DNA from: Solirubrobacterales bacterium
Lineage (GTDB): Bacteria; Actinomycetota; Thermoleophilia; Solirubrobacterales; 70-9
Length of the DNA: 64,000 nucleotides
Reading direction: 5' to 3'
Assembly (NCBI GenBank): GCA_025936755.1
Contig: JAICSS010000006.1
Coordinates: 1 to 64,000 of the forward strand
This document shows positions 52,841 through 58,161 of the stretch, one piece after another (the stretch's first letter is position 1; each line of letters starts with the position of its first letter). Position numbers and translations under genes: made by a program. The notes under the pieces were generated by a model, which did not search any database, was not told the DNA's origin, and worked only from the letters and a program-made list of their open reading frames with translations.

Positions 52841-53542
52841 CTAATCCAGCGAGGAGAGGAAGTCCGCGAGCTGTTCGATCTTCTTCGGCGGCAGTTCGCG
52901 GAACGAGGGCATGATGCCAGGGCCGATTTCGACCGAGCGGATGATCGCAGCCCGCGGGATCCGGGAGGCGATGTGCGTCAGTTCCGGGCCCGGGCCGTTG
53001 TTGCCGTTCTCGCCGAGTTTGTGGCAGGCGAGGCAGCCGGAGCCGGCGACGACCTCCTTGCCCGGCTCGTACCGTTTCGCGACCTGCATGTCGATCTCGG
53101 TCGGGGAGCCGCCGGTGGCGCCGAGGTAGGTGAGATAGCCCATCGCGATGATCGTGATGATCCCCGCCGTCGTCGCGATCGGGCGCCGCTCCGGGCGCCG
53201 CTCCGGGCCGCGGTCGTAGAACGGCAGCAGGAGCAGCAGGACCATGCAGATGGTCGGGATCCCGATCGTCGCGATCGGGACCAGTTCCGGCGGCTTGATC
53301 ACGCGCAGGAGCTCGAAGAGGAAGAAGAAGTACCACTCGGGGCGCGGGACGTAGGTGGTCGTGGTCGGGTCCGCCTTCGGGCCCTGCTCGGCGCCGAGGA
53401 TGATCGACATCGCGATGATCACGGCGACGACGATCAGCGCCATCGCCGAGTCCTTCATCACCGCGTAGGGGAAGAACGGCTTCCCCTTCTTCTTCAGAAG
53501 CTCGTATTCCTCGAGGTAGGCCTGCTTGTCTTGAGGTTTCAT
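52841..53542 (-). CDS. qcrC: Cytochrome b C-terminal domain fused to cytochrome c (menaquinol reductase subunit)
   Basis: A 233-residue protein: a subunit-IV-like region with PRPEWYFFFLFELLRVIKPPELVPI followed by three membrane helices (about 28-140), then a soluble cytochrome c domain with the heme site GCLACHK near residue 172 and a Met ligand region. This is the Bacillus-type QcrC layout. It starts at 53542 overlapping the cytochrome b stop by ATGA. It completes the quinol-oxidising core and passes electrons to cytochrome c acceptors. Confidence 0.88.
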   Translation of the reverse strand: MKPQDKQAYLEEYELLKKKGKPFFPYAVMKDSAMALIVVAVIIAMSIILGAEQGPKADPTTTTYVPRPEWYFFFLFELLRVIKPPELVPIATIGIPTICMVLLLLLPFYDRGPERRPERRPIATTAGIITIIAMGYLTYLGATGGSPTEIDMQVAKRYEPGKEVVAGSGCLACHKLGENGNNGPGPELTHIASRIPRAAIIRSVEIGPGIMPSFRELPPKKIEQLADFLSSLD

Positions 53543-54495
53543 ACGGCCCCGTTCCCCTCGCCGCTGACGGGCGATCCGTTGACGCGGTTGCCGTCGACGC
53601 GGCCGTTTCCGTTGACACCGGCGTCCAGCTCGGAGACTGGGGAGGCGACTTTCGGCCGCTCCGCTTTGACCCACGGGGGAGCCGTGGTGCCGAGCTTGAC
53701 CACGAGGTACATGTGGGCGCCGATCAGGGCGATGATCGCCCCGGGCACCAGCAGCATGTGGATCGCATAGAAGCGCGAGAGCGTGGTAGCGCCGAGCTCG
53801 GGGCCGGCGCGGAGGAAATCGCTGAGGTACGGGCCCACCACCGGGCCGGTCCCGTTGATGTTGATGCCGACGATCGAGGCCCAGAAGGAGCGCTGGTCGA
53901 AGGGCAGCAGATAGCCGGTGAAGGCCATCGTCATCGTCAGGATCAGGAGGACGACGCCGATCACCCAGTTCAGCTCCCGCGGGTACTTGTAGGCGCCGAA
54001 GAAGAAGGTCCTGCCCATGTGGAGGAAGATCAGGATCACCATCACGCTCGATCCCCACTTGTGCATCCCGTGCACGAGCTGCCCGAGCGGGACCTCGTTG
54101 TTGATGTGGGAGATCGAGGAGTAGGCCTGGGTCGCCGAGGGCGTGTAGAACATCGCCAGGAAGACGCCGGTGGTGGCCTGGACGATGAAGGCGAAGAGCG
54201 TCGCCGAGCCGAGCGTGTAGAACCAGTTGGTCCCTTTCGGGACCTTGCGGAACAGCATCCCGGTGAGGAAGCCGCTGACGGCGAGCCGCTGGTCGACCCA
54301 GCCGAGGGCGTCGATCGGGGCGTCTTTGCCGCGGTCGAGCAGCTTGTCGCCGGCGGTCTTGCGCTCCGGCGGCGAGGTCTTCAGGTCGGACGGAGCCTGG
54401 CCCTGGGGCGTGCCGGCGCTGCCCGGCTTGGCCGGTTTGCGCAGGGGCGGCGGGACGACGGCGTCCGGGATCTTCGGTTTCGGGAAGCTCGGCAT
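53539..54495 (-). CDS. qcrB: Cytochrome b N-terminal domain subunit (menaquinol:cytochrome c reductase)
   Basis: A 318-residue protein with a long Pro/Lys-rich cytoplasmic head (about 80 residues), then four membrane helices with the heme-ligand His pairs in the LVHGMHKWGSS and YAIHMLLVPG segments. This is the b6-like half of cytochrome b; the other half is the next gene. It begins one base into the Rieske stop (TGATG), so translation is coupled. The long head is unusual for the family. Confidence 0.9.
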   Translation of the reverse strand: MPSFPKPKIPDAVVPPPLRKPAKPGSAGTPQGQAPSDLKTSPPERKTAGDKLLDRGKDAPIDALGWVDQRLAVSGFLTGMLFRKVPKGTNWFYTLGSATLFAFIVQATTGVFLAMFYTPSATQAYSSISHINNEVPLGQLVHGMHKWGSSVMVILIFLHMGRTFFFGAYKYPRELNWVIGVVLLILTMTMAFTGYLLPFDQRSFWASIVGININGTGPVVGPYLSDFLRAGPELGATTLSRFYAIHMLLVPGAIIALIGAHMYLVVKLGTTAPPWVKAERPKVASPVSELDAGVNGNGRVDGNRVNGSPVSGEGNGAV

Positions 54496-55169
54496 CAGGG
54501 CGGTGGGAAGGTAGAGGGTCGCGGCGGGTAGAGGTATTCCCAGATCCCGCCGGTGAACTCGCCGGGGTCGCGGGCGCGGACCGGCTCCATCTGCGAGGTG
54601 ACGCTGTAGCGCGGGCCGAGTTCGACCTGGCCCTTGCTGACGCGGGTCTGGAAGTGGTCGAGCGGGCGCACCGGCGGGCCGCCGATCCGCTTGCCCTGGA
54701 AGTCGTAGACGCCGCCGTGGCAGGGGCAGATGAAGTTGCCGGCGGCCTCGACGAAGCGGACCGGGCAGCCGAGGTGGGCGCAGCGGTTGGAGACGGCGAC
54801 GAACTTGCCGGCTTCCTCGCCCAGGTCTTCGGAGCTGCGGCGCACGTAGGCGGTGGTCTTGCCGGCGTCCCCGATCCCCTCGGTTTCGGTGAAGACGACC
54901 TGGCGGTAGGTGTCTTCGACGAAGTCGGAGACCGGCCCGACCGCCTCCCAGCGCTCCTTGCCGCGGTGGAAGATCGGGGCGACCGCGAAGCCGACGGCGG
55001 GGAGCACGATCCCGGCCGCGGCGATGCCGCCGAGCGCCTGCGAGGCGACCGTGAAGACGTGGCGGCGCGTCATCGACTCCCCCTCGAAATAGCCGGGGGG
55101 GTCGGGCTTCGCCCGCTCCCTGATGGGCGCCTCCTCGGCCCCGTTTACCTTGTTCGCGTCGTCTGCCAC
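54495..55169 (-). CDS. qcrA: Rieske iron-sulfur protein with Tat signal
   Basis: A 224-residue protein. The cluster-binding boxes CAHLGC (near residue 129) and CPCHGG (near 151) give two Cys and two His ligands. The N-terminal region has a twin-arginine motif TRRHVFTVASQ followed by a hydrophobic segment, so it is exported by the Tat system encoded 5 kb away. The first gene of the reductase operon, with a CRP-type palindrome 43-58 bp upstream of the ATG. Confidence 0.92.
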   Translation of the reverse strand: MADDANKVNGAEEAPIRERAKPDPPGYFEGESMTRRHVFTVASQALGGIAAAGIVLPAVGFAVAPIFHRGKERWEAVGPVSDFVEDTYRQVVFTETEGIGDAGKTTAYVRRSSEDLGEEAGKFVAVSNRCAHLGCPVRFVEAAGNFICPCHGGVYDFQGKRIGGPPVRPLDHFQTRVSKGQVELGPRYSVTSQMEPVRARDPGEFTGGIWEYLYPPRPSTFPPP

Positions 55170-55211
55170 AGGTCGGTTCGCGTAGAGGGACGAAGTCTAT
55201 TGCTTAGAAGG

Positions 55212-55227
55212 TGTGACCTGCATCACA
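55212..55227. promoter_or_regulatory. CRP/GlxR-type operator upstream of the reductase operon
   Basis: TGTGACCTGCATCACA matches the TGTGA-N6-TCACA consensus of CRP-family activators exactly and lies 43 bp upstream of the Rieske start codon. In corynebacteria GlxR binds such sites ahead of respiratory genes. A CRP homologue is not in the window. Confidence 0.6.
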
Positions 55228-55290
55228 GATGACCAATATCTGGAGAAGCCGTCGTGCGTGGGGGCCTGCGGGAGCCCGGCGTCGGCAGCC

Positions 55291-55722
55291 CTATGCGGGG
55301 GCGAGAGAGATGCTCTCGGCTGCCTCGCGCCAGAGGAGAGGGATGCCCTCCACGTCTCCCTCCGCCTGGCGGCGGGCGCATTCGCTGATCAGGTCGGAGA
55401 GGATGGCGACGGCGCGGGTGTCGCCGAGGGCGGCGAGGCGGTCGAGGCCGAGGGCGTAGAGGTAGTCGCCGGCGAGGAGGGCGAGGTCGGGGTCGTGGCC
55501 GGCGAGGAGGCGGGGCTGCTCGTAGTGGAGGAGGTAGCCCTCGCGGACGGCCTCGACGACGAGGGCGTACTCGGCGGGCGCGGCGGCGGCGCCGGGACCG
55601 GAGGCGGCGAGCTCGCCGAGGGTGGGCGGCTCGGCCGGATCGACGACGTAGGGGGAGATCGGCGTGTCCTCGGCGCGCAGCTGGCCGGCGAGGGCCTGAA
55701 GGGCTTGGCTGGGATCAGGCAT
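55291..55722 (-). CDS. Short protein resembling part of polyprenyl synthase, 143 aa
   Basis: A 143-residue helical protein. Its segment LLAGDYLYALGLDRLAALGDTRAVAILSD lines up by eye with AGDLLFSRAFALLADAGDARSVALLAD of the synthase at 51035. It lacks the Asp-rich motifs DDxxD, so it cannot be a catalytic prenyl synthase alone. A regulatory or heterodimer-partner role, as in small subunits of heptaprenyl synthases, is possible. It lies 41 nt after hemL. Confidence 0.65.
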   Translation of the reverse strand: MPDPSQALQALAGQLRAEDTPISPYVVDPAEPPTLGELAASGPGAAAAPAEYALVVEAVREGYLLHYEQPRLLAGHDPDLALLAGDYLYALGLDRLAALGDTRAVAILSDLISECARRQAEGDVEGIPLLWREAAESISLAPA

Positions 55723-57075: not shown

Positions 57076-58161
57076 TCAAGAATGCTCGGCTTCCCAGCGG
57101 GCGTAGTCCTCGGTGAAGTAGTGGAGGCGGATCTTCTTGTACTCGGTCGAGGAGTAGAGGGTGGCGCGGTCCTCCGGGCCCATCCCGCACTCCGCGGCGA
57201 TCGCGTCGAGGACGGCGTCGCACTCCTCCTTCGAGCGGCCGTGGGCCATCGTGAAGACGCTGTAGGGCCAGTCCTCGTAGGTCGGCCGCTGGTAGCAGTG
57301 GGAGATGCCGCGGAAGGAGGCCATCCGGCCGCCGACCTCCATGATCTCGTCCTCGGGGACCTTCCAGACCCCCATCCCGTTGGCCGAGAAGCCGGCGCGG
57401 CGGTGGAAGAGGATCGCGGCGACGCGGCGGAGGATCTTGCGGTCGACCAGCCCCCGCAGGCGGTCGAGCAGCTCCTCGGTCGAGATCCCCAGCTCCTGTG
57501 CGGCGGCGTCGTAGGGGCGGGCGACCGCGGCCATCGGCCCCTGCAGGGCGCGGATCAGGGCGACGTCGTCGTCGTCGTAGGGCTGCGGTTCCAGCTCCCG
57601 CGGCGGCGCCGCTTCGACCGGCGCCGAGAGCGCCTCGGTCCCCTTCTCCATCTCCAGGTTCATGTTGATCTTGAAGAGGGTGAGGGTCGGCAGTTCCCGC
57701 ATCGACTCCGCGCCGGTCTCCTCCATCAGCGCTTCCAGCGTCCCCTTCAGGCCGAGCTCCGAGTCCGGCGGCGTGGCGATCGTGAACCACATGTTGAAGT
57801 CGTGGGTGCGCAGGTAGTTGTGGGATACGCCGGGGTGGGCGTTGACGATCCGCGCCGCCCGCTGCGGGTTCTCGCCGTCGACCTTCGCCGCCACCAGCAT
57901 CGACTCGTAGCCGAGGGCGCGGGTGTCGAAGATCGGGGTGATCTCGCGGATGATGCGGCCGTCGAGCAGGCGCTGGGTGCGGCCGAGGACGTCGTCGAGC
58001 TCGAGGTCCGCCTGCGACGCGAGGAGCGCGAACGGCTCGGGGTCGAGCGGGAAGCTCGACTGCAGGAGGTTCATCAGCCGCTTGTCGGTCTCGTCGAGCG
58101 GGATCGCGGCGCCGTCCTTGCGGCTGCGCGCCTTCGACTGCGGGAGCTTCACCGAAGCCAC
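57076..58161 (-). CDS. Fused two-domain siroheme decarboxylase / Lrp-AsnC-like protein (AhbA-AhbB type)
   Basis: A 361-residue protein made of two related halves, each a wHTH plus a RAM-like fold. The first carries HPGVSHNYLRTHDFNMWFT, the second GISHCYQRPTYEDWPYSVFTMAHG, which match the heme-binding/decarboxylase halves of AhbA/AhbB and NirDLGH proteins. It is placed between hemB and hemL, overlapping hemB by 13 nt. It may decarboxylate siroheme in an alternative heme route or act as a heme-sensing regulator; sequence alone cannot separate these. Confidence 0.82.
   Translation of the reverse strand: MASVKLPQSKARSRKDGAAIPLDETDKRLMNLLQSSFPLDPEPFALLASQADLELDDVLGRTQRLLDGRIIREITPIFDTRALGYESMLVAAKVDGENPQRAARIVNAHPGVSHNYLRTHDFNMWFTIATPPDSELGLKGTLEALMEETGAESMRELPTLTLFKINMNLEMEKGTEALSAPVEAAPPRELEPQPYDDDDVALIRALQGPMAAVARPYDAAAQELGISTEELLDRLRGLVDRKILRRVAAILFHRRAGFSANGMGVWKVPEDEIMEVGGRMASFRGISHCYQRPTYEDWPYSVFTMAHGRSKEECDAVLDAIAAECGMGPEDRATLYSSTEYKKIRLHYFTEDYARWEAEHS

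Follow-up and report, generated by a model that had tools for sequence, protein, structure and literature searches.

A CRP-type palindrome before qcrA in a Solirubrobacterales genome and its probable use as a landing site by IS1595-family transposons

The DNA described here is a 64,000-nucleotide stretch (the window) of contig JAICSS010000006.1 from a Solirubrobacterales bacterium (genome G000), which carries on its minus strand a Rieske/cytochrome b operon beginning with qcrA. Directly upstream of qcrA lies an exact TGTGA-N6-TCACA palindrome of the kind recognized by CRP-type regulators, and in the sister genome G033 (the same genome as L014, VAYN01000008.1) the equivalent site is occupied by a transposon. 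From comparison of the two loci and a survey of related elements we propose, with a probability of about 0.82, that the palindrome is a CRP-type site which served as the landing site of an IS1595-family transposon that targets such sites. The features of the locus are as follows.

52841..53542, minus strand: cytochrome b C-terminal domain fused to cytochrome c, start set by comparison with L014
53539..54495, minus strand: cytochrome b N-terminal subunit (b6 type)
54495..55169, minus strand: qcrA, Rieske iron-sulfur protein, from its open reading frame and a family match
55194..55199, minus strand: putative -10 box TAGACT, within the block CAATAGACT conserved before qcrA
55212..55227, minus strand: CRP-type palindrome, reading TGTGATGCAGGTCACA in the direction of qcrA, from an exact-match search
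55216..55223, minus strand: 8-bp core ATGCAGGT, equivalent of the target duplication ACGCAGGT of the G033 element
55228..55249, minus strand: degenerate IS1595-type terminal repeat GCTTCTCCAGATATTGGTCATC, probable scar of an older insertion
55291..55722, minus strand: open reading frame upstream of the palindrome, assigned to no family; its G033 ortholog runs into the terminal-repeat remnant

An earlier, sequence-only reading had described a perfect CRP-type palindrome before the Rieske/cytochrome b operon, and the exact 16-base match TGTGACCTGCATCACA bore this out; the distance to qcrA, given there as 43 bp, is 42 bp when counted to the GTG start codon (55169, minus strand). The palindrome was the single match in the window, even when one mismatch was allowed, and the whole 2.41-Mb genome contains one other exact match. 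Under a dinucleotide model the expectation is 0.39 exact matches per genome, which corresponds to a chance of approximately 2e-5 for the 121-bp intergenic gap. Sites with one mismatch numbered 11 in the genome and shuffled sequences (0.47 per 64 kb) predicted as many, so that near-matches alone are no evidence, and we rejected the reading of these 11 sites as a regulon on the basis of their count. Exact sites in 50 genomes of the family numbered 129 versus 4 for the reversed pattern, where the dinucleotide model expects approximately 20 and 12, respectively.

The block CAATAGACT was conserved across relatives at approximately 25–35 bp before qcrA. In several relatives it coincides with the last part of the upstream gene, and it is non-coding yet conserved in the genus of the window; because the block is kept even where it does not code, TAGACT is likely to be the -10 box. 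The centre of the palindrome lies 20.5 bp upstream of TAGACT, at approximately -32.5 from the start predicted in this way, and thus over the -35 region, where repression would fit better than classical activation.

In G033 the palindrome TGTGACGCAGGTCACA was found twice, 3,257 bp apart, bracketing an insertion between the upstream open reading frame and qcrA. The inserted DNA encodes an IS1595-family transposase (PF12762, PF12760, NF033547), an antitoxin-like SocA/Panacea protein and an XRE-type protein. An element finder which required only inverted repeats and an 8-bp duplication, and no palindrome, delimited an element of 3,249 bp with ends CACACATGGTCATTCTCTGTAGAAGC, terminal repeats matching at 24/24 positions, the 8-bp duplication ACGCAGGT and the flanks TGTG and CACA. 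When the G033 terminal repeat was compared with the window, the sequence GCTTCTCCAGATATTGGTCATC at 55228-55249 (minus strand) matched at 16/22 positions and was the best of 128,000 window positions, the next best reaching 14/22. Together with the adjoining TGTG the match was 20/26 (next best 16), and a BLAST match had an E value of 3e-10, with the shared promoter flank included. In G033 the sequence outside the left palindrome was likewise similar to a terminal repeat (TTTCTACAGAGAA). The most likely, and simplest, history would be that an older element stood ahead of qcrA in the ancestor shared by G000 and G033 and has left only its right end in each genome, and that a second element, still intact, later entered the same palindrome in G033.

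We searched the family, the order and the phylum for proteins related to the transposase and determined the ends of their elements with the same finder. Sixteen elements, from three families of the order, had ends starting with CACA or CACG (GACA on one side of one element). All of these (16/16) lay inside TGTG or CGTG, 8 bp, and CACA or CACT, some of the flanks being not independent, as elements lying side by side share a palindrome (G032, G021 contig 56 and probably G153). Their targets comprised 11 perfect TGTGA-N6-TCACA palindromes, four with one mismatch and one with two. By comparison, the 21 relatives whose ends are of another type, often GG, were never found in such a palindrome (0/21) and had targets with 4–10 mismatches. 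In the tree all 16 elements fell within one clade of 21 transposases (93/99), and four further members of this clade, cut by contig ends, showed the palindrome at the visible end. As far as sequence can show, an element of this clade enters between TGTG and CACA of TGTGA-N6-TCACA and duplicates the eight central bases, while its own ends (CACA/CACG...) restore the half that is lacking, leaving a near-complete palindrome at each junction.

Several features of these elements may be recorded here. At L264:2721, L269:3013 and L271:1496 the palindrome is flanked on either side by a terminal repeat, as adjacent elements share one site. The element of G051 (L314) has the end GGCGCTT and the duplication TGTGATAT, possibly an ancestral or a reverted target choice. 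A passenger protein of approximately 270–290 amino acids recurs (L262:1759-2574 and L265:249-1112, with similar open reading frames in L303, L306, L307, L308, L312 and L313); no Pfam match was obtained for the two copies scanned. Other passengers were of the HNH, PIN, XRE and SocA/Panacea types. A search of plasmids for close relatives of the transposase returned only proteins with less than 40% identity.

Orthologous empty sites allowed the order of events to be read at three loci. At a WS/DGAT gene the palindrome was uninterrupted in G037 and G041, with both flanks alignable, and the G038 element lay exactly inside it; at a MarR-type gene it was empty in G034 and occupied in G046, and at tlyA empty in G022 and occupied in G021. 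Judged from these sites, the palindromes were present before the elements arrived. A further insertion at tlyA was seen in a different family (G150), and G207 and G208 have insertions at MMPL genes. G046 and G021 have CACG as the inner palindrome halves and CACA as the outer ones. The target thus supplied the outer halves and the element the inner ones, and a 16-bp target duplication in place of the 8-bp one was rejected on the same observation. We also rejected the idea that the palindromes in general are old transposon scars, since they occur at orthologous genes also in genomes that lack the transposase (genus g2 and G022).

In one subclade, made up of 11 elements of which three are truncated by contig ends, TATAAT or TATACT was found inside the terminal repeat, 27.5–28.5 bp from the palindrome centre. 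A start codon follows 6–8 nt after TATAMT, being that of the transposase in 10/11 elements and that of another short open reading frame in G021 contig 56. Several of the GG-end relatives keep a -35 box of the TTGAC type. The palindrome of the subclade would be centred near -40, not far from the class II position of CRP at -41.5. We infer that in elements of the subclade the rebuilt host site stands in for a -35 box of their own and forms part of a leaderless transposase promoter.

The genome encodes one CRP-type regulator (cNMP_binding and HTH_Crp_2 domains) with the recognition helix TSRESVSR; a regulator of this kind is required by the sequence-only reading. Solved relatives of this protein include E. 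coli CRP and mycobacterial CRP, the latter among the nearest, and the Arg-Glu-x3-Arg of the CRP recognition helix reads TGTGA. Of 30 CRP orthologs read in the family, 29 had this helix and the remaining one is truncated. Three matches to class III cyclases were also found in the genome. The CRP-like helix, the three cyclases and the family-wide enrichment of exact sites make a CRP-type site credible, and the palindrome before qcrA is probably such a site, to which binding is predicted. The single conserved CRP-type protein would then be the host factor for the palindromes of the family and would still bind the qcrA site. A further and more tentative proposal, which we hold to be less likely than its converse, is that host CRP itself guides the elements, or that the transposase copies the DNA specificity of CRP, and that one subclade has lost its own -35 box, so that its leaderless transposase gene is driven by the rebuilt CRP site of the host, tying transposition to cyclic AMP signalling.

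A number of observations weigh against the landing-site interpretation or parts of it. The terminal-repeat remnant in the window is degenerate, with 6/22 positions changed, and no left end of the older element was found. Among the family genomes only G000 and G033 have the palindrome before qcrA; it was not found there in other genomes of the genus or of the nearest neighbour genus with usable sequence. Its apparent conservation between G000 and G033 reaches only p ~0.04 and rests on two genomes. One member of the transposase clade, that of G051, has another target and a GG-type end. Some recurrent palindromes of the family sit between convergent genes, so that some copies are not promoter sites. 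No palindrome was found upstream of the crp gene itself, and the regulator and the qcrA palindrome are on different contigs of a split assembly.

The strongest competing explanation, to which we give somewhat less than even odds, is an ordinary CRP/GlxR-type operator which controls the qcr operon by cyclic AMP, the link with a transposon being incidental. The perfect consensus, the intergenic, promoter-adjacent position and the presence of a CRP-type protein and cyclases are all consistent with such an operator. GlxR binds before ctaE-qcrCAB (bc1-aa3 genes) in Corynebacterium (PMC7026483), so that the statement of the sequence-only reading on CRP/GlxR control of respiratory genes in other actinobacteria holds. 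The palindrome differed between G000 and G033 at 1/16 positions and at 0/10 consensus positions, while the flanks differed at 20/65 (Fisher p 0.04), which hints at constraint. Against this, the absence of the palindrome before qcrA in the other genus members examined indicates that a regulatory role there may be recent or nil, and an operator conserved across the order was rejected on these grounds; in addition, the flank is a terminal-repeat remnant and the spacing to the -10 box is unlike that of a classical activator site. The site thus resembles the CRP/GlxR operators of actinobacteria in its motif, in the CRP-type protein, in its position near a promoter and in lying before cytochrome bc genes, a known GlxR target in Corynebacterium (PMC7026483), and differs from them in being lineage-specific and joined to a terminal-repeat remnant. 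The extension of such control to respiratory genes in this lineage can be kept in part only: palindrome, regulator, class III cyclases and family-wide sites are in place, but the palindrome before qcrA is shared with G033 alone, where it is also an insertion target, and it does not amount to a conserved respiratory control site.

A less probable alternative, if still a substantial one, is that the palindrome was left by an element and has no present regulatory role. The remnant in the window, the intact element in G033 and the lack of conservation elsewhere would suit such a scar, but the palindrome has changed less than its flanks, and at other loci the elements target sites which existed before them. 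An operator for Rex, the NADH/NAD regulator, shares the TGTGA-N6-TCACA core, and a Rex-type protein is encoded in the genome and would suit respiratory genes. The Rex consensus is TTGTGAA-N4-TTCACAA, with A and T beside the core halves and T/A outside. As the site reads CTGTGAT-GCAG-GTCACAC on the minus strand, its half-site context does not fit, and we rejected this very improbable reading. Least credible of all is a chance palindrome, for although one-mismatch sites are no commoner in the genome than in shuffles, an exact match in so short a gap is rarely expected, the palindrome stands at the same place in G033 and is duplicated there, and the same motif recurs at the 16 element insertions.

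The G033 element and its relatives agree with the IS1595 family (ISXO2-like DDE transposases) in their Zn_ribbon_IS1595 and DDE_Tnp_IS1595 domains, 8-bp target duplications, terminal inverted repeats, which can be aligned to those of the GG-end relatives, and passenger genes. The CRP-site clade is unlike the family in its ends, which are CACA/CACG and not the GG seen in several relatives, and in targeting a CRP-type palindrome which is rebuilt at both ends. IS1595 elements have been described with 8-bp duplications, while a terminal GG is stated for the related Merlin elements (PMC8101967) and is not shown to be obligatory for IS1595; A/T-rich 8-bp duplications were reported for ISApl4 (PMC12561309). 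Repetitive extragenic palindromes (REP) are known targets of other insertion sequences, for example IS1397 and ISPpu9 (PMC1525189, PMC8450116). Both these and the CRP-site elements enter short intergenic palindromes and spare genes, but the latter target a palindrome of the regulator-binding type and their ends imitate half of it. IS1397 and ISPpu9 have transposases of other families than IS1595. No earlier report of insertion into CRP sites was found among the open-access papers covered by our searches.

We regard the group of CRP-site-targeting transposons which marked the qcrA palindrome as a more important result than any role of that palindrome at qcrA. A transposon that lands in the sites of a global regulator, mends both sides and uses the site as part of its promoter would have an unusual way to do no harm to its host and to be switched by that host. 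The CRP-type palindromes of these genomes would also need to be reread, as some of them are junctions or scars of transposons; where a respiratory operon seems to have gained a regulatory site, a transposon may be the origin.

Other observations were made in the course of this work. A palindrome of the form TGTGACGG-N2-ATCACA lies between convergent genes, with long conserved flanks, in genus g2 (L204, L207, L214, L222 and L136, at approximately 1501) and is not obviously a promoter site. A thioredoxin-reductase-like protein with an N-terminal cyclic-nucleotide-binding domain is encoded on contig C37 of G000 (L002), and the Rex-type gene directly adjoins a tsaD-like gene on contig C40 of the same genome (L094). 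The cytochrome b of the operon (52841-54495, minus strand) is split into a b6-like N-terminal part and a C-terminal part fused to cytochrome c, which is not the actinobacterial QcrB/QcrC arrangement. At 57076-58161 (minus strand), between hemL and hemB, the siroheme decarboxylase subunits AhbA and AhbB are fused in a single open reading frame, both scoring above the NCBIfam cut-offs.
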